Assembly (NCBI RefSeq): GCF_964019385.1
Contig: NC_088647.1
Span: 9,998,157 to 10,062,156, forward strand
Reading direction: 5' to 3'
DNA length: 64,000 nt
DNA from: Sycon ciliatum
Taxonomy: Eukaryota; Porifera; Calcarea; Leucosolenida; Sycettidae
Part shown: positions 450-42,391 of the stretch, piece after piece
Layout of the letters: every line of letters starts with the position of its first letter
How positions within the stretch are numbered: position 1 is the first letter of the stretch
The notes under the pieces: generated by a model
Told to the model about the DNA's origin: nothing
The model's input: only the letters and a program-made list of their open reading frames with translations
The model's database searches: none
Translations under genes and position numbers: made by a program

Positions 450-597
450 ACCCCTCGTTGATGTGTGTGTGCGTGTGTGTGCGTGTGCGTGTGTGTGTAT
501 ACGATCGCGATACATGTAGTCGATAATAGCTGAAATGTTAGCCTGAAAGTTAGTCGAAACATTAAAAAATAAAAATAAAATAAAGAAAAAAATAATA
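450..597. other. Short spacer: TG repeat, GTTAGCC repeats, AT-rich flank of the Penelope insertion
   Basis: Contains a TG/CG microsatellite (about 462-500), two or three degenerate GTTAGCC-type repeat units that also occur at 9360-9630, and an AT-rich tract that is nearly the same as the tract directly after the Penelope-like element at about 9307-9335. No gene seen. Confidence 0.6.
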
Positions 598-762
598 TTC
601 GACGAGGAGACAATAATTTTAATATGGCAATAAGTAGGACGAGCTGAAGCGACATGTGGACTACTTTATTAACAATGTAAGCGATGGAGACGATGCAAGA
701 AACAACCTAAAGGGTAAGGAAAAATACATGTAAGAAGAAAAAGGGCAATGGAAAAAAAAAAA

Positions 763-806
763 GATGATTCGAACAAGTTTTCGTACAACACTCTTCAGGA
801 ATCACC
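763..806 (-). ncRNA. Type I hammerhead ribozyme, inverted Penelope copy
   Basis: Read on the minus strand: stem I strand GGTGATTC, core CTGAAGA, a 3-bp stem II (GTG/TAC with one G-U pair), core GAA, a 3-bp stem III (AAC-TT-GTT), cleavage C, and stem I strand GAATCATC. All invariant core positions are present. Predicted cleavage lies between 771 and 770. The very short stem III is typical of Penelope-associated hammerheads. Confidence 0.85.
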
Positions 807-1086
807 GTTGTACTAAAGAACAAAATGAGAACAAAGGAAATAATATAGCAATCAAGGTAGGGTGACACGATACAATGACAGCACTAGAATATCGAGGTGC
901 GATTTCTCACAAAAGTGTGCAGAAAACAAGGGTATACAAGTAAGAACTAAGCGTGACAAGTGTGTATCAGCAACAAAAAACAAAAAAGTGAGAACGAATG
1001 ATAATAATAACAATAATAAACAAGAAGGTGACAAAACACATTTAGGCACAAGTGGCAACAACGTTGCCACACTACACAACAGAACA

Positions 1087-4000
1087 TTATTTGAACAATT
1101 TTAAGGTAATAACACTATCTTTCTGGACACACAAATTCGGCTTATGAATGCGCTGACAAACAGCTTCCAAAACTTGTAACTGCAAAAGATAACCATGACG
1201 AGCACGGCACAAAACAGAAAAACAGGAATCAGAATAAGTACGACAACAGTCAGTACTAGAAACCAAATGATTGTATACTGAAGACTTGTTATTACGAGAC
1301 GGACGCACACAATCTCGACTCACGCGCACACCCTCACACTCACTCTCACCCTCACTCAGCTCACCTTCTCCCTCACTGTCCGAATCAGAACCTGCTCCGT
1401 CATCCACCGCGGTTTGACTCTCCTCCTCACTTGCATCGTCCTGCGTCTCACCTTCACCACCCACGCCAACCCTGAATGCCGTTGCCTTCACGTCAGTCGT
1501 CGTCCTTTCCGATTGTTTCCTTTGTATTTTTACCGTGAATTCATAGGTCCGGTTGTAATCTGCTGTAGATCTCCGTGGTCTGTCATTTGCTGCTTTGTTT
1601 TGTGGATTAGTTGTTGTTGTTGTTGGATGTGAACCTGGTGTTGTTGTTGGATGTGCAGCTGGTGTTGTTGTTGCAGCCATGGTTGTTGGTCTTTCTGTTG
1701 GATCCAGCTCTGGTTCCGGTGGGACAAATCGACCGCCGCGGGTGCTCCCCACCAACACAGACCTCGAAGGAGGAGGGTCAGGGGGAGGCAGAGGTGCTGT
1801 CACCACTCGAGGCACAGCCCCATGCAAAGCACCCAGAGACACAGACTTAGGCACACCCGAGGGCTGCACCAATGGCGGTTCCGCACGCACCTCCAAAGAG
1901 CTGCCAAGCTCCAGCCCGTCCAACACAGATGTCAGAGGGGGAGTGGCAGACAGCGGCAGGGAACTATCCTGCCGTCTAGGTGATGGGTTTTTCCTAGGCC
2001 TCCCGCGTTTGGGCCTCTCAGATTGCGCACTGGGTGGAAGGATGTGAAGTGGAGTGTGTTGTTTGATACGTGCGTTCAGGTGCTGAACAGTCCTACCAAC
2101 ATACCGACTAGCACAATGTCGGCATTCGAAGTTGTAGATAACATGACTGAGGTGGAGGGTTGGTAGGACGTCCTTCCGCACCGTGAACGCACGCATTGTT
2201 GTGAAGACTGGCACAAAATGTACTGCATAATAAGTACGACGGACGATAGACTTGACTGCGTGACACACTTTGATCGATTCCTGCCCCTTCCATGGCAAAC
2301 ATAGATAGACGGGACAGCGAGGTGGACCAATCAGCACCGATTTCGGTTTCTGCTCCATGGACAGAAACTTACGCAACAAGAATTCCGGATAGCCATTCTT
2401 CAAGAACACAGATCGAAGGAAATCGAGCTCGGCCTGCAGCTTACTGGGCGAACAAATACGTTCCGCACGGTCCACGAGGTTACGAACTAAGTTGACCTTG
2501 TATTGAGACGAACAATATGAATCGAAGGCAATGTACTGACCGGTGAACGTAGGCTTACGATACACAGAAGTCAACATTTCACAGCCAGTCTTCTCTACAA
2601 GCACGTCTAGAAATGACAACTTACTAGACTGCTCGTGCTCACAAGTAAAGCGGAGGGAAGGATGTAGGCTGTTGAGCACATCGAGAAACAATTCACTGCT
2701 CTCAACACTGTCAAAATGCGTGAACGAATCGTCAACAAAACGCACGTAGAACGCGGGCCAAAGCGACTCATCAATCTTGCACTCACAATAACCAACGAAT
2801 ATATTGGCGAGGACGGGACCAAGAGGAGATCCCATCGCCACACCATCTACTTGCTTGTACATCACATCGTTGAACGAAAATTCGACACCAGTTGTAACTG
2901 ACAGCATCAAATGACGAAACGCCGCTTCCGATACCCATGGAGTATCAACATCATCGTTACGGTACAATACATCCATACAGATGTCAACAGTCTCATCAAT
3001 AGGAACATTCGTAAAGAGACTTACAACATCGAAGGAACACATGTGTGCATTGAGAGGGACCGGACTATCACGAAGCCTCGCAACAAAGTCGAAGCTATCC
3101 TTCACAGTGCGTTTGCAATAGTAATCTTGAACAGGCTGTAGGTAGATGCACAGCCATTTCGAGATAGAGTATTGAGGGGAGGCGGTCATGGATACTATTG
3201 GTCTAACAGGGCATGTAGGTTTATGAATTTTAGGAAGGCCATAGAGTCTAGGACGAAGGGTACCAGTCGGTTTGATGCGATCGAATTCATGTTTTGATAT
3301 TTGTTCTTCATTCTTTAGCTTCTTAAGGTAAGTTACAAGATCCTTTTCTACTTTTTCAGTTCGATCACAGGTCTTGACCGGACCAAGTGTACGGAACTTT
3401 GATGTGTCATTTAGGATAACGGACATCTTCTCGATGTAGTCAGTTTTATTCATTAAAACAGTTGCACGACCCTTATCAGGGCGCGTGACAATAATGTCTT
3501 TGTTATTCCGTAGCTCATGCAGGGCTTTGAGATGTTCGCGTTTCAATGAAAACGTTCTTCTATCCGGTAATGCATCAGCGTGTTCCTCGGCCTCTGCCCG
3601 GATCTTTGCGGCGCAAATGGACTGTTGTGACTCGGACACCGGTCTGAAGCGTAATAACTTGCGGTAAAAGAGCTCAAACTCGGTCATGATTACTTCCTTC
3701 TTGTTTGATTTTGGTGGAATCCCGAAATCGGTTCCACGACAGAGGAGCTCTTTCTGAAGAGTGGTCAACTCTAGTGATGTCATGTTAATTATGGTGGTAT
3801 CAGGATCGATGGTGACATGTCCATATCTTTTCTGTCTTAGCCAATTGTAGGTCTTGTCATGTTTTGTGATTAGATGGATACGTTGTTTCTGGTCATTTTC
3901 CGAAAGGAGCATAGAGAATCTCAAGAAGTCGTGAGAGGAGAGAAAGCAGCGTGCACGATCATACAAATACCTAAACCGCGAACGTGACTTTGACAAAGTG

Positions 4001-4236
4001 TCGCAGGACCGGGCAATCTCGTCTTTCATGAATACGCGTTCGATGTTTAACGTGTGGTAAGCTTTGGTCCTGCGGACACGGTTCTCTACACCACCTGGAC
4101 AAACACCATTGTCCAGACAACGTCTAAGGAACACTACGTTAAATGCAACACTACGATAATGAAATCGTGACTTCAGCGCATGGTTCAGAATATCTATCTG
4201 AGTCTGGCTATATCTCGACCTGAAGTATTTAAAAAT
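1087..4236 (-). CDS. Penelope-like reverse transcriptase/GIY-YIG ORF, inverted copy without its own start
   Basis: Near-identical to the ORF of the full copy at 5619-8825 from its residue 20 to the stop, but lacking the first 19-20 codons, because those lie in the pseudo-LTR and this copy abuts that segment head-on. The frame stays open into antisense pseudo-LTR sequence up to 4680, so a fused protein with about 129 unrelated N-terminal residues is possible on paper but is probably accidental. All RT motifs are present, including the Asp-Asp pair and the LYGLPKIHK block. It differs from the full copy at isolated positions only. Probably not expressed as a normal Penelope protein. Confidence 0.75.
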   Translation of the reverse strand: MFKYFRSRYSQTQIDILNHALKSRFHYRSVAFNVVFLRRCLDNGVCPGGVENRVRRTKAYHTLNIERVFMKDEIARSCDTLSKSRSRFRYLYDRARCFLSSHDFLRFSMLLSENDQKQRIHLITKHDKTYNWLRQKRYGHVTIDPDTTIINMTSLELTTLQKELLCRGTDFGIPPKSNKKEVIMTEFELFYRKLLRFRPVSESQQSICAAKIRAEAEEHADALPDRRTFSLKREHLKALHELRNNKDIIVTRPDKGRATVLMNKTDYIEKMSVILNDTSKFRTLGPVKTCDRTEKVEKDLVTYLKKLKNEEQISKHEFDRIKPTGTLRPRLYGLPKIHKPTCPVRPIVSMTASPQYSISKWLCIYLQPVQDYYCKRTVKDSFDFVARLRDSPVPLNAHMCSFDVVSLFTNVPIDETVDICMDVLYRNDDVDTPWVSEAAFRHLMLSVTTGVEFSFNDVMYKQVDGVAMGSPLGPVLANIFVGYCECKIDESLWPAFYVRFVDDSFTHFDSVESSELFLDVLNSLHPSLRFTCEHEQSSKLSFLDVLVEKTGCEMLTSVYRKPTFTGQYIAFDSYCSSQYKVNLVRNLVDRAERICSPSKLQAELDFLRSVFLKNGYPEFLLRKFLSMEQKPKSVLIGPPRCPVYLCLPWKGQESIKVCHAVKSIVRRTYYAVHFVPVFTTMRAFTVRKDVLPTLHLSHVIYNFECRHCASRYVGRTVQHLNARIKQHTPLHILPPSAQSERPKRGRPRKNPSPRRQDSSLPLSATPPLTSVLDGLELGSSLEVRAEPPLVQPSGVPKSVSLGALHGAVPRVVTAPLPPPDPPPSRSVLVGSTRGGRFVPPEPELDPTERPTTMAATTTPAAHPTTTPGSHPTTTTTNPQNKAANDRPRRSTADYNRTYEFTVKIQRKQSERTTTDVKATAFRVGVGGEGETQDDASEEESQTAVDDGAGSDSDSEGEGELSEGESECEGVRVSRDCVRPSRNNKSSVYNHLVSSTDCCRTYSDSCFSVLCRARHGYLLQLQVLEAVCQRIHKPNLCVQKDSVITLKLFK

Positions 4237-4239
4237 TCC

Positions 4240-5188
4240 ACCCAGTGCGCAATCTGAGAGGCCCAAACGCGGGAGGCCTAGGAAAAACCCATCACCTAGA
4301 CGGCAGGATAGTTCCCTGCCGCTGTCTGCCACTCCCCCTCTGACATCTGTGTTGGACGGGCTGGAGCTTGGCAGCTCTTTGGAGGTGCGTGCGGAACCGC
4401 CATTGGTGCAGCCCTCGGGTGTGCCTAAGTCTGTGTCTCTGGGTGCTTTGCATGGGGCTGTGCCTCGAGTGGTGACAGCACCTCTGCCTCCCCCTGACCC
4501 TCCTCCTTCGAGGTCTGTGTTGGTGGGGAGCACCCGCGGCGGTCGATTTGTCCCACCGGAACCAGAGCTGGATCCAACAGAAAGACCAACAACCATGGCT
4601 GCAACAACAACACCAGCTGCACATCCAACAACAACACCAGGTTCACATCCAACAACAACAACAACTAATCCACAAAACAAAGCAGCAAATGACAGACCAC
4701 GGAGATCTACAGCAGATTACAACCGGACCTATGAATTCACGGTAAAAATACAAAGGAAACAATCGGAAAGGACGACGACTGACGTGAAGGCAACGGCATT
4801 CAGGGTTGGCGTGGGTGGTGAAGGTGAGACGCAGGACGATGCAAGTGAGGAGGAGAGTCAAACCGCGGTGGATGACGGAGCAGGTTCTGATTCGGACAGT
4901 GAGGGAGAAGGTGAGCTGAGTGAGGGTGAGAGTGAGTGTGAGGGTGTGCGCGTGAGTCGAGATTGCGTGCGTCCGTCTCGTAATAACAAGTCTTCAGTAT
5001 ACAATCATTTGGTTTCTAGTACTGACTGTTGTCGTACTTATTCTGATTCCTGTTTTTCTGTTTTGTGCCGTGCTCGTCATGGTTATCTTTTGCAGTTACA
5101 AGTTTTGGAAGCTGTTTGTCAGCGCATTCATAAGCCGAATTTGTGTGTCCAGAAAGATAGTGTTATTACCTTAAAATTGTTCAAATAA
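4240..5188 (+). pseudogene. Orphan C-terminal part of the Penelope protein inside the pseudo-LTR
   Basis: Encodes the AT-hook, Pro/Thr-rich and acidic region and the last part of the GIY-YIG domain, ending in KPNLCVQKDSV and TLKLFK, but has no reverse transcriptase in front of it. An ATG-initiated frame runs from 4349. This is a by-product of the pseudo-LTR structure rather than a separate gene. Confidence 0.75.
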
Positions 5189-5468
5189 TGTTCTGTTGTG
5201 TAGTGTGGCAACGTTGTTGCCACTTGTGCCTAAATGTGTTTTGTCACCTTCTTGTTTATTATTGTTATTATTATCATTCGTTCTCACTTTTTTGTTTTTT
5301 GTTGCTGATACACACTTGTCACGCTTAGTTCTTACTTGTATACCCTTGTTTTCTGCACACTTTTGTGAGAAATCGCACCTCGATATTCTAGTGCTGTCAT
5401 TGTATCGTGTCACCCTACCTTGATTGCTATATTATTTCCTTTGTTCTCATTTTGTTCTTTAGTACAAC

Positions 5469-5512
5469 GGTGATTCCTGAAGAGTGTTGTACGAAAACTT
5501 GTTCGAATCATC
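5469..5512 (+). ncRNA. Type I hammerhead ribozyme in the pseudo-LTR
   Basis: Stem I pairs 5469-5476 with 5505-5512 over 8 bp including one G-U. The core is CTGAAGA at 5477-5483 and GAA at 5493-5495; stem II is 5484-5492 and stem III is 5496-5503 with a 2-nt loop. Predicted cleavage is between C5504 and G5505, about 114 bases upstream of the ATG of the full-length ORF, so it would define the 5' end of the processed RNA. Confidence 0.88.
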
Positions 5513-5618
5513 TTTTTTTTTTCCATTGCCCTTTTTCTTCTTACATGTATTTTTCCTTACCCTTTAGGTTGTTTCTTGCATCGTCTCCATCGCTTACATT
5601 GTTAATAAAGTAGTCCAC

Positions 5619-8600
5619 ATGTCGCTTCAGCTCGTCCTACTTATTGCCATATTAAAATTATTGTCTCCTCGTCGAATTTTTAAATACTTCAGGTCGAGAT
5701 ATAGCCAGACTCAGATAGATATTCTGAACCATGCGCTGAAGTCACGATTTCATTATCGTAGTGTTGCATTTAACGTAGTGTTCCTTAGACGTTGTCTGGA
5801 CAATGGTGTTTGTCCAGGTGGTGTAGAGAACCGTGTCCGCAGGACCAAAGCTTACCACACGTTAAACATCGAACGCGTATTCATGAAAGACGAGATTGCC
5901 CGGTCCTGCGACACTTTGTCAAAGTCACGTTCGCGGTTTAGGTATTTGTATGATCGTGCACGCTGCTTTCTCTCCTCTCACGACTTCTTGAGATTCTCTA
6001 TGCTCCTTTCGGAAAATGACCAGAAACAACGTATCCATCTAATCACAAAACATGACAAGACCTACAATTGGCTAAGACAGAAAAGATATGGACATGTCAC
6101 CATCGATCCTGATACCACCATAATTAACATGACATCACTAGAGTTGACCACTCTTCAGAAAGAGCTCCTCTGTCGTGGAACCGATTTCGGGATTCCACCA
6201 AAATCAAACAAGAAGGAAGTAATCATGACCGAGTTTGAGCTCTTTTACCGCAAGTTATTACGCTTCAGACCGGTGTCCGAGTCACAACAGTCCATTTGCG
6301 CCGCAAAGATCCGGGCAGAGGCCGAGGAACACGCTGATGCATTACCGGATAGAAGAACGTTTTCATTGAAACGCGAACATCTCAAAGCCCTGCATGAGCT
6401 ACGGAATAACAAAGACATTATTGTCACGCGCCCTGATAAGGGTCGTGCAACTGTTTTAATGAATAAAACTGACTACATCGAGAAGATGTCCGTTATCCTA
6501 AATGACACATCAAAGTTCCGTACACTTGGTCCGGTCAAGACCTGTGATCGAACTGAAAAAGTAGAAAAGGATCTTGTAACTTACCTTAAGAAGCTAAAGA
6601 ATGAAGAACAAATATCAAAACATGAATTCGATCGCATCAAACCGACTGGTACCCTTCGTCCTAGACTCTATGGCCTTCCTAAAATTCATAAACCTACATG
6701 CCCTGTTAGACCAATAGTATCCATGACCGCCTCCCCTCAATACTCTATCTCGAAATGGCTGTGCATCTACCTACAGCCTGTTCAAGATTACTATTGCAAA
6801 CGCACTGTGAAGGATAGCTTCGACTTTGTTGCGAGGCTTCGTGATAGTCCGGTCCCTCTCAATGCACACATGTGTTCCTTCGATGTTGTAAGTCTCTTTA
6901 CGAATGTTCCTATTGATGAGACTGTTGACATCTGTATGGATGTATTGTACCGTAACGATGATGTTGATACTCCATGGGTATCGGAAGCGGCGTTTCGTCA
7001 TTTGATGCTGTCAGTTACAACTGGTGTCGAATTTTCGTTCAACGATGTGATGTACAAGCAAGTAGATGGTGTGGCGATGGGATCTCCTCTTGGTCCCGTC
7101 CTCGCCAATATATTCGTTGGTTATTGTGAGTGCAAGATTGATGAGTCGCTTTGGCCCGCGTTCTACGTGCGTTTTGTTGACGATTCGTTCACGCATTTTG
7201 ACAGTGTTGAGAGCAGTGAATTGTTTCTCGATGTGCTCAACAGCCTACATCCTTCCCTCCGCTTTACTTGTGAGCACGAGCAGTCTAGTAAGTTGTCATT
7301 TCTAGACGTGCTTGTAGAGAAGACTGGCTGTGAAATGTTGACTTCTGTGTATCGTAAGCCTACGTTCACCGGTCAGTACATTGCCTTCGATTCATATTGT
7401 TCGTCTCAATACAAGGTCAACTTAGTTCGTAACCTCGTGGACCGTGCGGAACGTATTTGTTCGCCCAGTAAGCTGCAGGCCGAGCTCGATTTCCTTCGAT
7501 CTGTTTTCTTGAAGAATGGCTATCCGGAATTCTTGTTGCGTAAGTTTCTGTCCATGGAGCAGAAACCGAAATCGGTGCTGATTGGTCCACCTCGCTGTCC
7601 CGTCTATCTATGTTTGCCATGGAAGGGGCAGGAATCGATCAAAGTGTGTCACGCAGTCAAGTCTATCGTCCGTCGTACTTATTATGCAGTACATTTTGTG
7701 CCAGTCTTCACAACAATGCGTGCGTTCACGGTGCGGAAGGACGTCCTACCAACCCTCCACCTCAGTCATGTTATCTACAACTTCGAATGCCGACATTGTG
7801 CTAGTCGGTATGTTGGTAGGACTGTTCAGCACCTGAACGCACGTATCAAACAACACACTCCACTTCACATCCTTCCACCCAGTGCGCAATCTGAGAGGCC
7901 CAAACGCGGGAGGCCTAGGAAAAACCCATCACCTAGACGGCAGGATAGTTCCCTGCCGCTGTCTGCCACTCCCCCTCTGACATCTGTGTTGGACGGGCTG
8001 GAGCTTGGCAGCTCTTTGGAGGTGCGTGCGGAACCGCCATTGGTGCAGCCCTCGGGTGTGCCTAAGTCTGTGTCTCTGGGTGCTTTGCATGGGGCTGTGC
8101 CTCGAGTGGTGACAGCACCTCTGCCTCCCCCTGACCCTCCTCCTTCGAGGTCTGTGTTGGTGGGGAGCACCCGCGGCGGTCGATTTGTCCCACCGGAACC
8201 AGAGCTGGATCCAACAGAAAGACCAACAACCATGGCTGCAACAACAACACCAGCTGCACATCCAACAACAACACCAGGTTCACATCCAACAACAACAACA
8301 ACTAATCCACAAAACAAAGCAGCAAATGACAGACCACGGAGATCTACAGCAGATTACAACCGGACCTATGAATTCACGGTAAAAATACAAAGGAAACAAT
8401 CGGAAAGGACGACGACTGACGTGAAGGCAACGGCATTCAGGGTTGGCGTGGGTGGTGAAGGTGAGACGCAGGACGATGCAAGTGAGGAGGAGAGTCAAAC
8501 CGCGGTGGATGACGGAGCAGGTTCTGATTCGGACAGTGAGGGAGAAGGTGAGCTGAGTGAGGGTGAGAGTGAGTGTGAGGGTGTGCGCGTGAGTCGAGAT

Positions 8601-8825
8601 TGTGTGCGTCCGTCTCGTAATAACAAGTCTTCAGTATACAATCATTTGGTTTCTAGTACTGACTGTTGTCGTACTTATTCTGATTCCTGTTTTTCTGTTT
8701 TGTGCCGTGCTCGTCATGGTTATCTTTTGCAGTTACAAGTTTTGGAAGCTGTTTGTCAGCGCATTCATAAGCCGAATTTGTGTGTCCAGAAAGATAGTGT
8801 TATTACCTTAAAATTGTTCAAATAA
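5619..8825 (+). CDS. Penelope-like reverse transcriptase with GIY-YIG endonuclease, intact
   Basis: 1068 residues. The ATG lies in the end of the pseudo-LTR, downstream of the ribozyme, and residues 1-20 come from it. Motifs seen: the DKGRATVLMNKTDY block, LYGLPKIHKP, motif A FDVVSLFTNVP (Asp422), motif B GVAMGSPLGPVLANIF, motif C FVDD (Asp521-Asp522), FLDVLVEK and VYRKPTFTGQY. These are the Penelope/telomerase-related RT hallmarks. A GIY-YIG start (CRHCASRYVGRT, about 717-746, with Arg742 and His746) is followed by about 255 residues containing an AT-hook (KRGRPRK, 762-768), Thr/Pro-rich and Ser/Glu-rich acidic runs, before the rest of the nuclease (about 1002-1068, with LEA Glu1043 and KPNLCVQK). 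RT copies element RNA and the nuclease nicks target DNA. No frameshift or stop is present. Confidence 0.9.
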   Translation: MSLQLVLLIAILKLLSPRRIFKYFRSRYSQTQIDILNHALKSRFHYRSVAFNVVFLRRCLDNGVCPGGVENRVRRTKAYHTLNIERVFMKDEIARSCDTLSKSRSRFRYLYDRARCFLSSHDFLRFSMLLSENDQKQRIHLITKHDKTYNWLRQKRYGHVTIDPDTTIINMTSLELTTLQKELLCRGTDFGIPPKSNKKEVIMTEFELFYRKLLRFRPVSESQQSICAAKIRAEAEEHADALPDRRTFSLKREHLKALHELRNNKDIIVTRPDKGRATVLMNKTDYIEKMSVILNDTSKFRTLGPVKTCDRTEKVEKDLVTYLKKLKNEEQISKHEFDRIKPTGTLRPRLYGLPKIHKPTCPVRPIVSMTASPQYSISKWLCIYLQPVQDYYCKRTVKDSFDFVARLRDSPVPLNAHMCSFDVVSLFTNVPIDETVDICMDVLYRNDDVDTPWVSEAAFRHLMLSVTTGVEFSFNDVMYKQVDGVAMGSPLGPVLANIFVGYCECKIDESLWPAFYVRFVDDSFTHFDSVESSELFLDVLNSLHPSLRFTCEHEQSSKLSFLDVLVEKTGCEMLTSVYRKPTFTGQYIAFDSYCSSQYKVNLVRNLVDRAERICSPSKLQAELDFLRSVFLKNGYPEFLLRKFLSMEQKPKSVLIGPPRCPVYLCLPWKGQESIKVCHAVKSIVRRTYYAVHFVPVFTTMRAFTVRKDVLPTLHLSHVIYNFECRHCASRYVGRTVQHLNARIKQHTPLHILPPSAQSERPKRGRPRKNPSPRRQDSSLPLSATPPLTSVLDGLELGSSLEVRAEPPLVQPSGVPKSVSLGALHGAVPRVVTAPLPPPDPPPSRSVLVGSTRGGRFVPPEPELDPTERPTTMAATTTPAAHPTTTPGSHPTTTTTNPQNKAANDRPRRSTADYNRTYEFTVKIQRKQSERTTTDVKATAFRVGVGGEGETQDDASEEESQTAVDDGAGSDSDSEGEGELSEGESECEGVRVSRDCVRPSRNNKSSVYNHLVSSTDCCRTYSDSCFSVLCRARHGYLLQLQVLEAVCQRIHKPNLCVQKDSVITLKLFK

Positions 8826-9105
8826 TGTTCTGTTGTGTAGTGTGGCAACGTTGTTGCCACTTGTGCCTAAATGTGTTTTGTCACCTTCTTGTTTATTATT
8901 GTTATTATTATCATTCGTTCTCACTTTTTTGTTTTTTGTTGCTGATACACACTTGTCACGCTTAGTTCTTACTTGTATACCCTTGTTTTCTGCACACTTT
9001 TGTGAGAAATCGCACCTCGATATTCTAGTGCTGTCATTGTATCGTGTCACCCTACCTTGATTGCTATATTATTTCCTTTGTTCTCATTTTGTTCTTTAGT
9101 ACAAC

Positions 9106-9149
9106 GGTGATTCCTGAAGAGTGTTGTACGAAAACTTGTTCGAATCATC
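9106..9149 (+). ncRNA. Type I hammerhead ribozyme, full Penelope copy
   Basis: Same 44 bases as the copy at 5469-5512: stem I 9106-9113 with 9142-9149, core CTGAAGA 9114-9120 and GAA 9130-9132, predicted cleavage between 9141 and 9142. It lies in the 3' UTR, about 280 bases after the ORF stop. Together with the upstream copy it could release a unit-length 3.6-kb RNA. Confidence 0.88.
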
Positions 9150-9292
9150 TTTTTTTTTTTCCATTGCCCTTTTTCTTCTTACATGTATTTTTCCTTACCC
9201 TTTAGGTTGTTTCTTGCATCGTCTCCATCGCTTACATTGTTAATAAAGTAGTCCACATGTCGCTTCAGCTCGTCCTACTTATTGCCATATTA

Positions 9293-9640
9293 AAAAAAAT
9301 AATAATAAAAAATAAAATAAAGAAAAAATAATAATAATAAAAAATTTAAAAAAAAAATCCAATAATAGCCGAAAAGTTAGCCCAGAAGTTAGCCGAAATG
9401 TTAGCCTGAAAGTTAGCCGAAATGTTAGCCTGAAAGTTAGCCGAAACATTAAAAAAATATATATATATATATAAAAAAATACTCAATCTGCGGACAGCAT
9501 GCTCTTTCGTTCTAAAAAAAAATAAAATAAATAAATAAATATAATAAAAAAAAATCCAATAATAGCCGAAAAGTTAGCCCAGAAGTTAGCCGAAATGTTA
9601 GCCCGAAAGCTAGCTGAAACGTAAAAAAATTCCAACCATG
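9293..9640. repeat. AT-rich tracts and GTTAGCC minisatellite
   Basis: Poly-A/AT-rich runs alternate with two blocks (about 9360-9447 and 9556-9622) made of 12-bp GTTAGCC(C/G)(A/G)AA-type units arranged in tandem. The same units lie left of the Penelope insertion at about 525-567, so the repeat predates the insertion and belongs to the host Polinton or its intergenic spacer. No gene seen. Confidence 0.7.
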
Positions 9641-13570: not shown

Positions 13571-13967
13571 AAAGGTGGGATTTGAGCCAGAACCCCCATC
13601 GCACTATACTACTCCCAGCAGCTCGCTTTGCATACGTACACCCTTCAGCAGCCTTCGTGCCTGGCTCTCTTTGTTAGTTGCATTGGCTCGCATGACTCTT
13701 GCTCCGTGTTTTCACCCACCCACCCACACCGACTTCATTGTGTTACAATTCTCATTCTGTAGCACCCCGCTTATACTACTAACCTCATTCGTCTTCCAAA
13801 CTCACTCTGCTAAACAAAAACAAGCAGGGATTGGGCACTGAACTCTCAGTAGCTGGCAGCATTCTCTCTACTCTCCCGAATCCCTCTATTCGGTTACTGC
13901 CCTTGGCAGGTCAGCCGCCATTTCGGTCTCACTCTCGGTCCCCGCCTCTGTCGGGTCGGCCGCCTCC
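13571..13967. other. Sequence between minisatellite and gypsy pol, no recognised gene
   Basis: Open frames continue upstream of the gypsy ORF but show no gag, zinc-knuckle or protease active-site motif, and no sequence matching the putative 3' LTR. The 5' border of the gypsy element is probably somewhere here. Confidence 0.5.
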
Positions 13968-16900
13968 ATGGTTACACACTGCCAGCTCCTTCGCCCAGTT
14001 ACCCTGTGGTGCCAACCAACTACTGCTGTGTCTGTGTGTGGGTCGTGTATGCCTCCGCGTACGGAGCATGCGTTAATGAAATGCAATGGCTCCTTGTCTG
14101 AGCTGGTACCATCCAGCATCACCCTATCTACATACACAGGAAATCCAATCAAATGTCTGGGTGAAATCGAAATGAAAATGGCTTTGGGTGGTGTAGAGGA
14201 GAATGTTCTGGTCAGAGTTACTGAATGTGATGGTCCTTCTCTCTTAGGCCGGGATGTCTTGTCCAGGTTTACTTTGCCATGGAAATCTATATTCAAAGTG
14301 GGCACTGGCGGGCAATCCACTACCGATTTCGTTAAGAAATACCCGAATCTGTTTGACAACTCCACTGTGGGTACGGTGCAAGGGGTGCAAGTAAAGCTGC
14401 ACGTGTCAGATGAGCAACCGGTCTACAAACGAGCAAGACCAGTACCTCTAGCAATTCGACAGCGGTACATCGACGCGTTGAACAAACTCGAGGCTGATGG
14501 GGTGATTGAGAAAGTGACGCATTCCGAATGGGCCTCACCAACGGTACAAGTAGAGAAACCAGGAGGAGGATTACGGATTTGCGCAGATTACAGTGGGACT
14601 ATTAACAAGCATTCAGAATGTGAACAGTACCCACTCCCCACCCTCGAGGAATTGTTGCACAAGTTGGGCCCGGGAGGGAAGTTTACCAAACTCGACTTGT
14701 CCCAAGCATACCACCAGCTAGAGGTAGCACCGGAAAGCAGGAAATACACCACCATCAACACAATTCAGGGCCTGTACCAGTACAAACGCTTACCGTTTGG
14801 TTTCCACAGTGCCGTATCCATTTTCCAAAGGGTAATGGAAGAAACCTTGGTTGCGCTACCAGGCAGCGGCGGGTACATTGATGATGTGCTGTGTACCGGG
14901 GAAAATGATGAAATCCATGAGGAAAACGTGGACCGGGTACTCCATCGACTGGATGAGAAAGGTTTCAAATTGAATCCGGAGAAATTCTGTTACATGGCTG
15001 AGGCACTCTCTTACTTAGGTCACACGATCAGTGGGCAGGGCGTCTCCCCTTCAACAGCCAGGATACAGGCACTGAAAATGGCCAAACCACCACAGAATGT
15101 TGCCGAATTGCAATCTTTCATCGGTTCTGCAAATTTCGTGCGGAAGTTTGTGCCTCATTTCGCAGAAATTGCAGCTCCTTTGTTCGACCTCTTGAAAAAG
15201 GGTGGGAAATGGCACTGGGAGACCACTCACGAGCAAGCTTTTGGCAAATTGAAGGATGCTATGTGTTCAGAAGCCCTACTGGCACACTATGATCTACAAA
15301 GGCCAACAGTGTTGCAAGTGGATGCTTCGGGAGTGGGCCTTGGCGCAGTCCTACTGCAGAAGCAGGAGAATGGCGAATTACGACCGATCGCATTCATGTC
15401 GCGTAAGCTGACCCCAGCAGAGTCACGCTATGCTCAAATTGAAAGAGAAGCATTGGCTGTGGTGTTCGGAGTGACCAAATTTCGCCAGTACCTACTCGGT
15501 AGAGAGTTCATAGTGGTCACTGATCATCGTCCACTCTTGAAGTTACTGGGAAATCACGAGGATGTCCCCACTCTCGCCTCTAATCGAATCAAGAAATGGG
15601 CATTGCAACTGGCGGCGTACGATTACGAAATGCAGTATCTCGCGGGGAAAGAAAACGTCCATGCGGATTTTCTCTCGCGACAACCAATGCAATCTGTGTC
15701 ACCGAGTGAGGAGGAGACCGTCACGGTACAGGTCTTGCTTATCGAGAACGACTCTATAATCAAAGCGGCTGTGGTGAGAGCAGAATCGGCAAAGGATTCT
15801 GTATTGGCTAAAGTAATTCGCTATACGGTTAATGGGTGGCCTGCTGAAATTGAGGAAGACCTCAAGGCATATGCTAGCAAGAGAATGGAATTGTCTGTGG
15901 AGAATGATATCTTGTTATGGGACAACCGGGTGGTGATTCCTAACTCACTTCGAATGCTCTTGCTACGAGATCTGCATGCAGAGCATTTTGGCATGGTGAA
16001 AATGAAGCAAGTGGCCCGGCGCTACTTGTGGTGGCCCAATATTGACCAGGATATAGAATCTAAAGTCAATGCGTGTTTGCAATGCCAAGAGAATGCCAAA
16101 TGCCCACCGGCAAAATCCGGTGTTTGGTCATGGCCTACGGGTCCATGGAAACGGATACACATTGATTTTGCCGGGCCATTTCTGGGAAAAATGTTCTTGG
16201 TGGTGGTAGATGCTTACTCTAAGTACTTGGATGTAATACCCATGGCTCATGCAACCAGTGCGACCACGATTTCTGCTTTACGCCATCTGTTTTCTGTGTT
16301 TGGTTTGCCTGAGCACTTGGTTACAGATAACGGCAGTCAGTTCACGAGTGCGGAATTCCAGGCGTTCCTGGATGGCAATGGCATTCTACACACAACAACG
16401 GCGCCAGGTCATCCAGCAACTAATGGCCTCGCCGAACGCTACGTTGGCGTCTTCAAGCAGAAGATGAAAGAAATGTCGAACACTGGTGAACCACTCAACG
16501 TCAGGCTCGACCGGTTTCTCTTAGCGCATCGAACAACGCCAACCACCAGTGGGAAGACGCCGGCGGAGCTGTTAATGGGCCGGCAACCGAGAATCCGGCT
16601 CAGTGCATTGCGGCAGTCTGAGAGTCATCGGCAGGTCAAGGTGTACCAGGAGAGCTTGACTACGCCAAAGTTTAACACCGGTGACGCTGTGTTCGCCCTG
16701 AACTTTGGTCGTGGAGCAACTTGGGTACCAGCTACTGTAGTGCATGTCCACAGCCCTCACAGTTTCGGAGTACAGGTGGATGATGTCGTCTGGAAGCGCC
16801 ATAGGGACCAACTACGACCGCGGGCGGTGCAGTTTGGCCAAGTACCCGTTTCTTCTTCTGCGGACCAGGCGGTCGCACAGCTGCCTACACCGACCAGTGA

Positions 16901-17099
16901 CCCGCCGGCAGTACTAGATTCTCCTCTACCACTTCCGGACGCTAGCAGCAACAGTAGCACTGTCAGGCCGGATGATACGCTAGCCCCAGCAGCAGACGCC
17001 GTAGGAGTCGAGACGGCTCCCAGTGTTGTTGCACCGGCACCCTTGCGTCGCTCCGACCGACATGTCTCCGCGCCCAAGCGCTTGATTGAGAACTGCTAA
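13968..17099 (+). CDS. Ty3/gypsy pol polyprotein (RT, RNase H, integrase), protease truncated
   Basis: 1043 residues without a stop. Order: the C-terminal part of a retropepsin (LSTYTGNPIKCLGEI to LLGRDVL) with its catalytic Asp region missing; RT with KLDLSQAYHQ, LPFGFHSAV and YIDD (about residues 303-306); RNase H (LQVDASGVGLGAVL, TDHRPL, LAGKENVHADFLSR); integrase with an HHCC zinc-binding segment (HAEHFG to CLQCQ), catalytic Asp in HIDFAG, Asp in TDNGSQF and Glu in NGLAERY. This is the K02A2.6-like gypsy type common in aquatic animals. RT makes cDNA and the integrase inserts it. The N-terminal 60 residues look unrelated. Intact RT and integrase suggest recent activity, yet the 5' loss makes this copy non-autonomous. 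Confidence 0.88.
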   Translation: MVTHCQLLRPVTLWCQPTTAVSVCGSCMPPRTEHALMKCNGSLSELVPSSITLSTYTGNPIKCLGEIEMKMALGGVEENVLVRVTECDGPSLLGRDVLSRFTLPWKSIFKVGTGGQSTTDFVKKYPNLFDNSTVGTVQGVQVKLHVSDEQPVYKRARPVPLAIRQRYIDALNKLEADGVIEKVTHSEWASPTVQVEKPGGGLRICADYSGTINKHSECEQYPLPTLEELLHKLGPGGKFTKLDLSQAYHQLEVAPESRKYTTINTIQGLYQYKRLPFGFHSAVSIFQRVMEETLVALPGSGGYIDDVLCTGENDEIHEENVDRVLHRLDEKGFKLNPEKFCYMAEALSYLGHTISGQGVSPSTARIQALKMAKPPQNVAELQSFIGSANFVRKFVPHFAEIAAPLFDLLKKGGKWHWETTHEQAFGKLKDAMCSEALLAHYDLQRPTVLQVDASGVGLGAVLLQKQENGELRPIAFMSRKLTPAESRYAQIEREALAVVFGVTKFRQYLLGREFIVVTDHRPLLKLLGNHEDVPTLASNRIKKWALQLAAYDYEMQYLAGKENVHADFLSRQPMQSVSPSEEETVTVQVLLIENDSIIKAAVVRAESAKDSVLAKVIRYTVNGWPAEIEEDLKAYASKRMELSVENDILLWDNRVVIPNSLRMLLLRDLHAEHFGMVKMKQVARRYLWWPNIDQDIESKVNACLQCQENAKCPPAKSGVWSWPTGPWKRIHIDFAGPFLGKMFLVVVDAYSKYLDVIPMAHATSATTISALRHLFSVFGLPEHLVTDNGSQFTSAEFQAFLDGNGILHTTTAPGHPATNGLAERYVGVFKQKMKEMSNTGEPLNVRLDRFLLAHRTTPTTSGKTPAELLMGRQPRIRLSALRQSESHRQVKVYQESLTTPKFNTGDAVFALNFGRGATWVPATVVHVHSPHSFGVQVDDVVWKRHRDQLRPRAVQFGQVPVSSSADQAVAQLPTPTSDPPAVLDSPLPLPDASSNSSTVRPDDTLAPAADAVGVETAPSVVAPAPLRRSDRHVSAPKRLIENC

Positions 17100-36500: not shown

Positions 36501-39167
36501 AGTTGAAATTGCTACAGGTGAGGAGGCTCTGTTCATAAATATGGCCTGGAAGTGCTACACCACAGCCTGACCCGAGTCATGACAATGCTAACTTTCGGAT
36601 CTACTCCATCCCGGCAGTTTTGCATGGATCCATACAAGTTTGGGTGGTTTTCCTTCACAGCATAGTGACACATCCACTGATGGTGACTGGATTGGGCAAT
36701 CCCGGTCAGGGACCCACTCCTGGTACAGAAAAAGAATCACACCTGCAAGCGACACGAGTGGTCCACCCACCATATCCTGTACTTCGCTAGGGCAAAGTGG
36801 ATCCCAAAGTTGCTATTTGTCATTGGATTTTGACTTCTGACTTTATCATATTCAAGGCATACACCACCTTTTTTTTCAAAGCCAGCATGGACACATGTAG
36901 GTTCTCTCAACCTATCCCCCCCCCCCCTCACTTTTTAGCAAGCATGCTGTCATACTTATGGGTTAGCAGTCACCTATCTTCCAGCCCTTAGAGATCTGAC
37001 ATCATGATCACAAATTGATATTATCCATGTACATGTGAAGTGATCCAGTCCCTAACCCCTCCTTGTAAGCGGACCATGTTTGCTTTGAACAATCAGATAT
37101 GGATGGTTTCTCAGGAATTATCATAACTCAACTAGTGCTCTTCATCCGCTCTTCACTTTTCCAATACAATGGGGTTCCATTTCCCTACAAGCCAGGTTCT
37201 CTGGAGGTCCAGCCGCAGGGTAAATAGCACTGGAACTTTCGTTTTTTAGCCAGAGTTCTCTTTGAACATGTGCCGCTTTGGTTGCATTGTGATGACACGG
37301 GTTTCATGGACTGTTTTGCTGATCAAACTCATACCGAGCAGAATTCACCTGAGCTTTAAAATACTGCTTCTCTTCAATTGGTTTGCTCTTGTTTGATAGG
37401 GAAAGGCAAAGCACTCCCCCTCTGCTTTATCAGCAACTGCACCCGCTACCCAGCGTCCAGCATCTGCAATGGGCTACCTACATGATGATTACACGGCATC
37501 CAGCAATGGCGGAGGCAGTGGTCGCATGGAACAGGATGCCACACCCGCGCCGCCTGGCCAGCTACGTTCCTCTCGTCTTGCCAGTCCAGCATCACCGCTC
37601 GACCTGGCCACCAGCATTGACGAGGACAGGTCGGAGATGGAGCGGCTGCTTTCCTTGGCCGAGCAGGAGCGCTCTCAGCAGCTCCAGGCAGCAGAGGAAC
37701 ATCGGCGCATGTCTATGGATCAGAGAGAGGAGATGACCAAGAAGAAGCGAGAGAAGGTGCTCCGCAACCTTGTCAAAGACCGGAAGATGCGCGAAGAGAA
37801 GGACAGGGAGAAGCGATGGGAGAAGCTCGAGGCAGAAAGACAACGGCAGCTGGAGGAAGAGGAGGAAGAGGAGGCCAGACAGCTTAGTGGAGAGATTGCC
37901 ATCATCCGTGGAAGTCAAGAAGATGTGGGAACATCTGCTACGGATGGTGGCGATGAAGGGGAGACAGAGGATGGTACTGATGATGGTGGTAGTGGCGGTG
38001 AAGATCGTAATGCCGTAGAGGAGATTGATGACGAGCCAATCTGGGGTGACTTACCCGCCAGGTCAGAGCCAAGCAGCGAGATCGACACAGCAGCACCTGA
38101 AGATTATAGTGCTGAACCTGACAACACACGGGAGGACTCTCAAGCTGATCACGCAATAGAAGAGAATAGGACCACCTCGCATGATTGTGTTTCTACCACT
38201 GAAGACAACGACCAAGGTACTAATGATGATGATTCGGCTGTGACCCATGGCGACTGTCCCATTGAGAATGCTATGATAACACCGCGGGAAGATACCAAGA
38301 ACAATGGCCGTTCAGGTGTAGTCGGTGATGTGTCCATTTCCAGCATCCTAGATCCTCTGGCCAGTGCCATAGAAAGCATAGCACAGGGTCAGACTGAAAA
38401 GCGGCGCAGCATCACACGCCTGTCAGCGTCCAGCTTCACACGAAGCCCGCTGCGATCGCCACATGTCAGCGGAACAGCCCTCAACAAGGAGTCCCCGCCA
38501 CCAGCAAAGCCTCCGCGTCCGCCAGTTATCGTCGAGGTAGACCCAGCTCGGCGGATTTCCTCTGCTAGAACATCAAGTACGACAAGCCATGCGTCTGTAT
38601 CATCCACCGAAATGACCGACTCGGCTGTGGGATCGCCTTCAAGTAGCCTCAATATATCAAATGAAGCCGGTAGCGCGGACATGTCAAGGTATTTCGGCAG
38701 TGCGCTCAAGGATTTCTGTGGAGATGAGGATGATGAGGATGATGAGGATGCAGAGTTGGTGAATGAACCTGTCGACCAAGGTAAGTTTTTTTTGTTGAAT
38801 CTGAACACGTTGCTTGCAGACATGCAGTCACAACTTACCGTAGTGTCTTGCCTGTCTCATAGAAGCCTGTTTTGAATACAAGCCGGATGCTAAAAGAGCT
38901 ATGTACTGTCCACCACTGCAACTAGATAATACGCAGGCAGAACGTGCGATAACTGTAGGCCACAACTTTAGTTAGCAATGACTTGTTTTTAAATAGAAGT
39001 CAAGTGTAGTCGTTTTGTCTGGGCTCTCTAAGCTGGCCTAGCAGTTACATGTCGAGCTGCAAACACTCTCGTCACGCATGGCGTGTGCACTCACCAGTGT
39101 CCGTGTAATTGTGCTGCCTCCATTCGTTTCACCCACAGGTATGGCAGGTGTCTTCACTGAGGTGTAG
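25065..39167 (+). CDS. LMO7/LIMCH1-like calponin-homology protein without LIM domain
   Basis: Exons: 25065-25118, 25254-25324, 25695-25764, 29140-29270, 30386-30521, 30756-31490, 32417-32991, 33940-34013, 34686-34999, 36134-36517, 37400-38780, 39139-39167. Every junction is AG/GT and every phase fits; the sum is 3954 bases, or 1317 residues plus stop. A type found in LMO7 and LIMCH1 is recognised from the CH domain (DGVLLCKLLNAIK, VRNVLVTLYWLNQKA). These proteins bind actin and act at adherens junctions and in non-muscle myosin II control. Then come Ser/Pro-rich linkers, a charged coiled coil (about 920-1010) and an acidic stretch. The vertebrate C-terminal LIM domain is absent; the last exon ends FTEV, which resembles a class I PDZ ligand. 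A later LIM exon used by alternative splicing cannot be excluded. Confidence 0.82.
26330..26410 (+). repeat. Possible tRNA-derived SINE fragment
   Basis: AAGCTCATCACTTGCATGG followed 10 bases later by GAGTTCGAATCCAGT resembles a tRNA box A / box B pair, and a T-rich run follows. It lies inside the Tc1/mariner remnant. No cloverleaf acceptor stem could be built, so it is not called a tRNA. Confidence 0.35.
26928..27633 (-). pseudogene. Tc1/mariner-type DDE transposase pseudogene
   Basis: Read on the minus strand in changing frames: an N-terminal helix-turn-helix-like piece (YSIRHAAVACGVSISTMNR), then in another frame TYLDETWVNARHT carrying the first catalytic Asp, then in a third SSGKGKRVIVLHTGG. 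At least two frameshifts and a stop separate the pieces, and the second catalytic Asp region was not found. It is a dead copy. Confidence 0.75.
27957..29139. other. Rest of intron 3 of the LMO7/LIMCH1-like gene
   Basis: No exon seen. Contains a MITE copy at 28441-28593 (separate entry). Confidence 0.5.
28441..28593. mobile_element. Small MITE, copy A (GGACATTGAA ends)
   Basis: Begins GGACATTGAAGTTC and ends GATTTCTATGTCC, which are imperfect inverted repeats. The inside (GCCACGGGGCGCTGGCC, GTGAGCACT, CTGGTCC) matches copy B at 63581-63750 over its whole length. Confidence 0.7.
30756..32991 (+). CDS. LMO7/LIMCH1-like exons 6-7: Ser/Pro-rich linker
   Basis: Exons 30756-31490 and 32417-32991, residues 155-591. 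Rich in Ser, Pro, Thr and Arg with many SP dipeptides, which suggests a disordered, phosphorylatable region; no folded domain seen. The intron between them holds a 59-bp near-perfect palindrome at 32203-32261. Confidence 0.8.
32203..32261. repeat. Near-perfect 59-bp palindrome
   Basis: Arms of 29 bases with one mismatch around a single central T; would form a long hairpin in RNA or a cruciform in DNA. It lies in an intron, 150 bases upstream of exon 7. Confidence 0.85.
33286..33310. repeat. Poly-G run
   Basis: About 24 consecutive G in an intron; may form a quadruplex. Length could be a sequencing artefact. Confidence 0.8.
33940..36517 (+). CDS. LMO7/LIMCH1-like exons 8-10
   Basis: Exons 33940-34013, 34686-34999 and 36134-36517, residues 591-848. 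A proline run (GPPPPPKRD) opens exon 8. Exon 9 has a helical patch (DEDIIATLQSEIMADLENF). Exon 10 begins with an Ala/Pro/Gln repeat built on TVSAPIVQ-type units, then KSSLSKSFSFG, then a charged helix ending QEQQQLKLLQ. No known domain. Confidence 0.78.
35447..35735. repeat. 30-bp minisatellite, about 9 units
   Basis: Units of GTTCTTCGGCGCTCTGTTCT followed by TTGGCGCTCC are nearly identical. Because 30 is a multiple of three, all frames stay open and simulate repetitive proteins; it is intronic in the LMO7/LIMCH1-like gene (between exons 9 and 10). Confidence 0.95.
36518..37399. other. Intron 10 of the LMO7/LIMCH1-like gene
   Basis: No further exon seen. Contains a poly-C run at about 36918-36927. 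Confidence 0.5.
37400..38780 (+). CDS. LMO7/LIMCH1-like exon 11: coiled coil and acidic tail
   Basis: 460 codons plus one base. A strongly charged Glu/Lys/Arg region (KKKREKVLRNLVKDRKMREE onward) predicts a long coiled coil, the part of LMO7/LIMCH1 proteins rich in DUF4757-like and myosin-binding sequence. It ends in EEEEEEE, then an Asp/Glu-rich disordered tail and a second acidic run (GDEDDEDDEDAEL). The donor is CAAG|gtaagt. Confidence 0.82.
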
Positions 39168-40625: not shown

Positions 40626-40772
40626 TGCTGCTCAATGAAATCCGATCTTGCGAGGCGCTGTGCAGCCCCAGACCCGTGAACACTGGGCTAGCTAGCTACT
40701 AGGCTAGCTGTGCACTGGCGCAGAGAACGCAAACTGGACTTATGCGCCAAGATCGAATTTCATTGAGCAGCA
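40626..40772. mobile_element. 147-bp MITE-like inverted repeat
   Basis: Ends TGCTGCTCAATGAAAT on the left and its reverse complement on the right, about 25 bp with one mismatch. No clear target-site duplication seen. Confidence 0.6.
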
Positions 40773-41125
40773 TGCACTGACTGTCTGTAGCCTACACTAC
40801 AGTGTACTGAAGCCACTCCCAGTGCAGTGTCAGAATACTCTACCAGCACTGCAGTAAGGGTTAGTGAATAAATACAATGATCTACAGTCATGGTTGATAA
40901 ATATGGTGGTAAAGACACACCTGGCAATATGGCGGTAAACACACGCCTGCCCACACACGCTCTCTAGGCTGCAAAGTTCTGGTACAGAGCTCTCCTTCTC
41001 ACCACCACCACCATCAGTTCGCGCCTGGCGCCTGGTCGATGCTTGGCTGGCGGTATCCGGCATAGCAGGCTGGTACATCAAGTAGCGCATGACACATAGA
41101 AGATGACACAGCAACGACATAGCTC

Positions 41126-41175
41126 GATTGCGACGTAGATCTACGTTTCGTCCCCGCTGGACTCGTCAGGCAATC
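41126..41175 (-). ncRNA. Type I hammerhead ribozyme, left arm
   Basis: Minus-strand order: stem I GATTGC, core CTGACGA, stem II GTCC-AGCGG-GGAC, core GAA, stem III ACGTA-GATC-TACGT, cleavage C, stem I GCAATC. Core complete. Stem III is 5 bp with a 4-nt loop, longer than in the right arm. Cleavage is predicted between 41132 and 41131. Confidence 0.88.
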
Positions 41176-41207
41176 TTCAAGCTCCGTATGAAGACATCCA
41201 AGAAGAA

Positions 41208-41251
41208 GATTGCCTGATGAGTCCAGCGGGGACGAAACGTACGTCGCAATC
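41208..41251 (+). ncRNA. Type I hammerhead ribozyme, right arm
   Basis: Stem I 41208-41213 with 41246-41251 (6 bp), core CTGATGA 41214-41220, stem II GTCC-AGCGG-GGAC 41221-41233, core GAA 41234-41236, stem III ACG-TA-CGT 41237-41244. Cleavage is predicted after C41245 (GTC site). Core complete, with the minimal stem III of retrotransposon hammerheads. Confidence 0.9.
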
Positions 41252-41487
41252 GAGCTATGTCGTTGCTGTGTCATCTTCTATGTGTCATGCGCTACTTGAT
41301 GTACCAGCCTGCTATGCCGGATACCGCCAGCCAAGCATCGACCAGGCGCCAGGCGCGAACTGATGGTGGTGGTGGTGAGAAGGAGAGCTCTGTGCCAGAA
41401 CTTTGCAGCCTAGAGAGCGTGTGTGGGCAGGCGTGTGTTTACCGCCATATTGCCAGGTGTGTCTTTACCACCATATTTATCAACCAT

Positions 41488-42391
41488 AAGTACAGCTGCA
41501 GTGGTGTCTTCAATTTCATTCTCCCGATCTACAGTATGTCTTCAGAAAACTCTACCACTAAGGCACTGTTTGTAGTACATGTAGTACCAGCCTGAGGATG
41601 CCATGGTAGAGTCTTCTTGTCGGCTGCTCCGATCTGAGCAGAGACTGAGGCACGCGTGAGGGATTCGCCACCTCGTTTCGTCACAAAGACGAAAGAGATG
41701 CATGCAAACGATCTCGATGATGGGGTTAATCATCATTTTGATGCCATCACTGGCATCAGACATCATTCAAGCTGAAGGTCCAAAGGTCGTCACCATGGTC
41801 ACGCAGCTTCCACTGTTCCAGGATCAAGCAGCTGCATGCGCATGCACATGGTATGAACGATTGGTACATGTACCGGGAAATCAGCCAATCAACGTGCAGC
41901 TTGTGTTTGAGCAGTGCTAACAGCGCATGCTCGATAACGCCATCTAACGCCAAGCAATCTTCCTCCTTCGTCTTCCTGCTTCTTGATGTGCAATGTAAGT
42001 TGGCTGTGTGGTTCGTTTCGCTGTGCGGCTTCTGTTTGTTCCTCTTTTGTTTGTGTTGTCATTTCTGAAGGCCACTGTCGGTTTCGTGGCACATAATGAT
42101 GGTGTAGAGAACCAACCATGCCTTATCAGACGCTTGGATAGCGAGCAGTCCATTCCTGGCACAAACGTGAAACGTAAGGTTGTTTTCAAAAAATTAATAT
42201 GGCTTCCTTGAGCCCGAATGGAATTTGTTGTAGAAAAGTGACAACGAAGCTACATGTGTCTCTGGCATTGACTCTTGGCTATTATCGGCTCTGCCAACTC
42301 GATTTCTTGTGATTGAAATGCTCGGTAATGAGGTTACATCCTTTGCCAGTAAGGTAATTTGGTGTTTGCTAGCTGCTTAGATAGACCTGCT
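41488..42391. other. Non-coding stretch, nothing recognised
   Basis: ORFs in both directions are short, and none continues through a convincing splice site. Confidence 0.4.

Follow-up and report, generated by a model that had tools for sequence, protein, structure and literature searches.

Metazoan (non-LTR) retrozymes are described by Cervera and de la Pena (2020; PMC7229834) as direct tandem repeats with a G+C content below 50%, and the words 'inverted', 'opposite' and 'head-to-head' are absent from the main text of that paper. Their mobiliser is only proposed there, as LINEs or Penelope-type elements (PLEs), with PLEs as a strong candidate, and a 2020 review describes retrozyme repeats as having no motif that reveals an autonomous partner and names PLEs as likely candidates (PMC7761336). 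In rotifer Penelope elements, head-to-head was the most frequent inverted arrangement observed, and these elements have target-site duplications of 8-10 bp, while one of the inverted repeats may carry a 31-bp tail (PMC3846280). The purified PLE protein PAc of a lizard (Anolis) cleaves both strands, extends both of them and initiates synthesis internally; its tail is the stretch between its two start sites, and ribozyme cleavage was unnecessary for insertion in vitro (PMC11167929). We found no account of head-to-head retrozymes in the literature searched, which took in few subscription papers. The initial annotation of the locus studied here had called its layout undescribed, which agrees with these searches as far as retrozymes are concerned, but the same layout is known for Penelope elements.

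In this study, we analysed 64,000 nucleotides of Sycon ciliatum DNA (the window), in which a palindrome had been annotated as a head-to-head pair of retrozyme-like units with type I hammerheads on both strands. Rfam matches and mapping of the units bore out this identification. The results showed that the palindrome is a single insertion of a high-copy retrozyme-like element, and we consider it highly probable that it represents one insertion of a non-autonomous animal element of this kind made by Penelope-type machinery. The arms (40890-41178 and 41205-41487), annotated as reverse complements of about 285 bp, were confirmed as a palindrome (97.2% over 289 columns), but the unit is 351-352 bp long and the right arm runs 38 bp beyond 41487, up to 41525. 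The true extent of the element is 40890-41525, between 10-bp target-site duplications GATCTACAGT at 40879-40888 and 41526-41535 (neither with a strand). We mapped the insertion on the unit of a tandem locus (L041). The left arm (40890-41178, minus strand) is one retrozyme run from unit position 283 to 1, with an outer end that has no tail and a private 6-bp insert in stem III. The right arm (plus strand) starts with unit positions 324-351 at 41177-41204, overlapping the left arm by 2 bp at the junction, and continues with positions 1 to about 320 at 41205-41525; its 38-bp extension (41488-41525, plus strand), found on the right arm only, is the tail. The supposed 26-bp spacer corresponds to unit positions 324-351 and therefore belongs to the right-hand run. 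The G+C content was 52.8% for the window element and 52.7% for the L041 unit, outside the published description, and we therefore call the element retrozyme-like, a variant. It carries neither reverse transcriptase nor GIY-YIG endonuclease, only a 124-codon stop-to-stop frame that overlaps the right arm and extends into the flank. Retrozyme-like is thus what the element is, whereas PLE-made is how its insertions look; the element itself is not a PLE. Directly to its left lies a separate 25-bp inverted repeat with a 97-bp gap (40626-40772, 96% complementary).

A type I hammerhead had been annotated at the inner end of each arm, and both were recovered. The right-arm copy (41208-41251, plus strand) matched Rfam Hammerhead_1 (RF00163) at 35.4 bits against a cut-off of 34; it has T7 and a stem III of 3 bp without a tetraloop (ACGUACGU), and cleavage is presumably between 41245 and 41246. 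The left-arm copy (41126-41175, minus strand) scored 27.8 bits, below the cut-off, yet its core and stems are intact; it has C7 and a stem III of 5 bp with a GATC loop. These differences had been described correctly, but the suggestion that the kept pairings reflect selection proved weak. The same T7 and stem III were present in 139 of 152 hammerhead-like motifs from 56 loci, whereas C7 with the 6-bp palindromic insert was confined to the window left arm and therefore looks like a private change. With the variant in one copy among 152 motifs, we dropped selection as a reading of it. Rfam reported 118 hammerhead matches at cut-off (55 + 63) in loci L006-L045. With one ribozyme per strand, the window locus has no means of freeing a circle of unit length through double cleavage, which loci with tandem runs could do. 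The annotation had also foreseen complementary RNAs or one long hairpin, and the hairpin was borne out in prediction: the predicted fold of the window transcript (-619 kcal/mol) contained 283 pairs between the arms. Such a hairpin would be expected to mask the ribozymes, and the predicted transcript might give rise to double-stranded RNA. By pattern only, additional hammerhead-like motifs, whose stems are unrelated, were found near L006, L007, L011, L024, L028, L033, L035 and L036, and none of these was among the Rfam matches at cut-off. The genome may hold several more ribozyme-bearing families.

The genome-wide search for other copies proposed in the initial annotation was run on the 538-Mb assembly. 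The ribozyme pattern, with at most 2 mismatches, occurred in 1247 copies (647 and 600 by strand), compared with 0 copies of a reversed control pattern, indicating that the family is not due to chance. Both direct tandem (L041) and inverted (34 pieces) forms were found. The search ruled out a two-copy curiosity at one locus, since the family is dispersed and high-copy, and a 285-bp unit was ruled out by the ribozyme spacing of 351-353 bp in tandem loci. No similar DNA was found in phage records, and the exact 32-base ribozyme pattern was absent from the viral and prokaryote contigs, sets from which near records may be missing. In one region of about 205 kb (G000:C1:69380844-69586234), many same-strand ribozyme copies were seen, several pairs of them 345-352 bp apart; they recur every several kb, perhaps as a larger repeat that captured a retrozyme.

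Our main sample consisted of 40 loci fetched from the best matches to the palindrome and is biased towards inverted loci. Before counting, two L016 pieces separated by about 1.1 kb of other sequence were joined, one piece at the end of L028 was dropped, and a minus-strand fragment 43 bp beyond the plus arm of L035 was counted as a separate piece. Among the resulting 44 pieces, 34 were head-to-head (minus-strand units followed by plus-strand units), 10 were one-armed and none was counted as tail-to-tail. As a check on the bias, we read 16 loci with the exact ribozyme in order along contig C1, chosen regardless of inversion, out of 17 not already fetched in that stretch (the locus at 915,625 was omitted). 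Eleven of these were head-to-head, four one-armed and one cut by the fetched end, and none was tail-to-tail; two pairs in this set, L050/L051 and L060/L061, look like near-duplicates. Head-to-head is the commonest insertion product among the loci read, and the inverted pair is not the peculiarity of one locus that it was first taken for. It is known that long perfect palindromes can be artefacts, and these structures could in principle be assembly or long-read hairpin errors. However, the arms differ in unit end positions, lengths and flanks, they are mostly closed by target duplications, and they occur in dozens of places on many contigs, so that we give this explanation hardly any weight. 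An origin from ordinary satellite arrays through inversion and recombination would agree with tandem runs as long as that of L041 (14 ribozymes on one strand), but duplications, two preferred outer ends and a one-way, head-to-head orientation are unexpected from recombination, which makes this origin extremely improbable.

The outer ends fell into two classes, which we defined by unit position as 272-291 (no tail, about 283) and 309-330 (tail, about 318). Both ends could be classified in 29 of the 34 head-to-head insertions, and all 29 have one end of each class, with the tail on the left in 15 and on the right in 14. The remaining five have one end outside both classes (L008 at 301, L013 at 258, L018 at 265, L019 at 222 and L034 at 218). 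The arm with the tail was the longer one in 25/34 insertions, the left arm being taken as the tail arm if its outer end was at least 300. Exactly one tail was also found in 6 of the 7 classifiable loci among the 11 head-to-head loci of the unselected set. In that set, L050 has two no-tail ends without a duplication, and its near-duplicate L051 has one end of each class and a 12-bp duplication. By alignment, the runs of L053, L054 and L055 end at unit position 72-80 (the L055 duplication overlaps its run end), possibly because of a third start site or later damage, and one end lies at 240 in L060 and at 256 in L061. In RNA fold predictions, the 318 start lay in a hairpin loop throughout and the 283 start only in some predictions; the starts of the PLE and of the second hammerhead family described below were not consistently placed in loops, and we give these placements no evidential weight.

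Target-site duplications 8 bp long or longer were present around 34 of the 44 pieces (30/34 head-to-head and 4/10 one-armed), compared with 1.0% of 1892 mismatched left-right pairs. A narrower rule gave 28/44 at the same length; it was widened after ends overlapping the repeat were seen, and the widened rule was used for the mismatched pairs as well. Of the 34 duplications, 21 measure 12 or 13 bp and 4 sit in AAT-type repeats. In the unselected set, where 15 loci could be tested, 9 had duplications of 8 bp or more. Retrozymes might alternatively be moved by LINE-type target-primed reverse transcription with twin priming. In twin priming, the second cDNA starts at variable internal sites, whereas both outer ends here lie in two narrow classes, one of each in 29/34 head-to-head insertions, as in PLEs; a poly(A) end was not evident in the flanks inspected. 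We therefore regard this route as very improbable, although LINEs also leave target duplications of such size and Nematostella repeats with 15-bp duplications have been likened to them (PMC4918200).

The window also contains a PLE insertion, with a left arm at 594-4241 (minus strand), whose outer end at PLE unit position 209 has a tail, and a right arm at 4236-9295 (plus strand), whose outer end at position 186 has none. The arms are head-to-head and 99.9% identical, and the unit is 3637 bp long. Its frame (5568-8825, plus strand) combines a reverse transcriptase (RVT_1, 7.6e-5) and a GIY-YIG-like domain (0.019), both below the Pfam cut-offs. The frame matched 778 proteins at E 0.001 or better; among the 120 of these 778 matches listed, the named ones included a reverse transcriptase of the octocoral Chrysogorgia stellata and proteins of parasitic flatworms. 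No solved structures similar to the frame were found. The cores of minimal hammerhead-like motifs were located, by pattern only, at 5477-5496 (plus), 9114-9133 (plus) and 779-798 (minus), and Rfam reported none of them at cut-off.

Five PLE insertions were read, namely that of the window, L062 and L063, which were picked for listed opposite-strand pairs, and L064 and L065, which were picked because the match stopped at the tail end. All five have the head-to-head orientation, and in each of them one outer end carries the tail (209-215) and the other lacks it (184-193); the tail measures 22-30 bp. The retrozyme signature thus matches the PLE insertions of the same genome in orientation and in the tail rule (5/5); the PLE flanks are AT-rich and often (AAT)n, so the likeness covers orientation and tail only. 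At G000:C3:530089-541359, the PLE start region occurs four times in direct orientation with a spacing of about 3.65 kb, which makes up a tandem PLE array. As judged by eye, a second hammerhead-bearing family, at 548-1152 of L028, is likewise head-to-head; its duplication measures 11 bp, and only one of its arms has a tail, of 30 nt. Its hammerhead is a pattern match without an Rfam match at cut-off, and blastn gave no match between this family and the retrozyme. The insertion anatomy points to a partner for the retrozymes, in that their scars are of the same kind as those left by PLEs in the same genome.

The inner junctions are scattered over the whole unit on both arms and are not mirrored between them. 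Of the 34 junctions, 21 overlap by 1-9 bp, 4 are blunt and 9 have extra bases; an overlap of at least 2 bp was present at 14/34, compared with 16% expected (binomial P 3e-4). The inner positions of paired arms lay within 20 bp of each other in 5/34 insertions versus 4.4 expected from shuffling, and their mean distance was 71.9 versus 83.1 in shuffles, slightly closer (P 0.08). We also compared rare variants, defined as those in at most 3 of 44. A rare variant was common to both arms in 13/34 insertions, including that of the window, and in 6/34 (L008, L016, L024, L032, L042 and L043) no such variant was common to the arms and 6-14 were confined to a single arm. These data bear on snap-back self-priming, in which one cDNA folds back, or an antisense template primes itself, and the second arm copies the first. 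This process has been proposed for rotifer Penelope head-to-head repeats with junction palindromes (PMC3846280), and it would agree with the slightly closer inner positions and with the PLE insertion L062, in which both arms start at unit position 3573. The near-chance number of close inner positions, the unlike lengths and outer ends (tail or none) of the arms, and the six insertions with one-sided variants argue against it, and we consider it improbable.

The one-sided variants require two different RNAs or later mutation. Units differed on average by 0.95% between opposite arms of one locus, 0.63% within the same arm and 2.0% between different loci. Enough sequence was available at 26 loci; at 20 of these the opposite arm was more similar than other loci were on average, and at 6 it was not. 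Together with the shared rare variants, this closeness suggests that both arms often come from the same or a sister RNA. The near-identical tandem units are compatible with the copying of a circular RNA; a linear transcript with tandem units is a possible alternative template.

We infer the following scheme of insertion by PLE machinery, including its enzyme, the circular form of the template and the sequence of steps. Tandem copies would be transcribed, and their hammerheads would cut the RNA into units of about 352 nt, which, by analogy with published retrozymes, may circularise. A PLE enzyme, probably a dimer, would make a staggered double cut in AT-rich DNA (stagger about 12 bp), and each exposed 3' end would prime reverse transcription of the retrozyme RNA, with one start near unit position 318 and a second near 283. 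Tandem runs would arise where a cDNA circled the RNA more than once. On meeting head-to-head, the two cDNAs would be joined at random positions, often by microhomology, and gap filling would produce the target-site duplication. A dimer with one subunit restricted to one of two sites would give the one-tail rule. No start-site difference between strands was seen for PAc (PMC11167929), and the published PAc start-site data therefore do not explain one tail per insertion. We put at about even the chance of a more specific form of this scheme, in which one circular RNA, or two in a dimeric PLE particle, would be copied simultaneously from both 3' ends with obligatorily asymmetric starts (318/283), every complete insertion being a divergent double array with one tail. 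If this is true, bidirectional rolling-circle retrotransposition would be how animal retrozymes move. Against the PLE account, the analysed PLE family has no significant sequence in common with the retrozyme. Kinship of the retrozyme with the window PLE by sequence was rejected (best match only 17 nt, E 0.78), so that this single family does not identify the actual partner.

We compared the element with the described systems. Like the metazoan retrozymes of PMC7229834, it has a type I hammerhead, a unit within 170-400 nt, direct tandem runs and a high copy number, and it co-exists with a PLE that has a minimal hammerhead-like motif. Unlike those retrozymes, which are reported there in direct tandem and with G+C below 50%, it shows two divergent runs per insertion, a PLE-type signature and a G+C content of 52.7%. 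With endonuclease-bearing PLEs (PMC3846280, PMC11167929), it shares head-to-head inverted copies, an optional tail of about 30-40 bp and internal starts, but its duplications are mostly 12-13 bp, compared with the 8-10 bp given in PMC3846280. A hammerhead is present in PAc as well, for which AT-rich targets and both-strand priming have been shown (PMC11167929). The retrozyme differs from PLEs in that it encodes no such protein and has a unit ten times shorter than that of the window PLE, and its hammerhead passes the Rfam cut-off whereas the window PLE motif does not. In the newt satellite hammerheads, the stem III region is likewise very short and palindromic, a feature that in the newt favours dimer action (PMC7229834); stem III of the sponge element, by contrast, is ACGUACGU (3 bp, no tetraloop). 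The many short tandem retrozyme copies would provide a natural record of the PLE mechanism: where synthesis starts, how the cuts are spaced, the pairing of the two start types in each event and the joining of ends by microhomology. The idea of mobilisation by PLEs also lends itself to testing, both with the PLE assays already published and in any retrozyme-bearing animal genome.

Two other parts of the window were inspected. A gene model for 37400-38875 was rejected; it had one relative, without a name (E 4e-43, 40% identity). An open frame at 13842-17099 carries reverse transcriptase, RNase H and integrase domains and is an LTR-type retroelement polyprotein.
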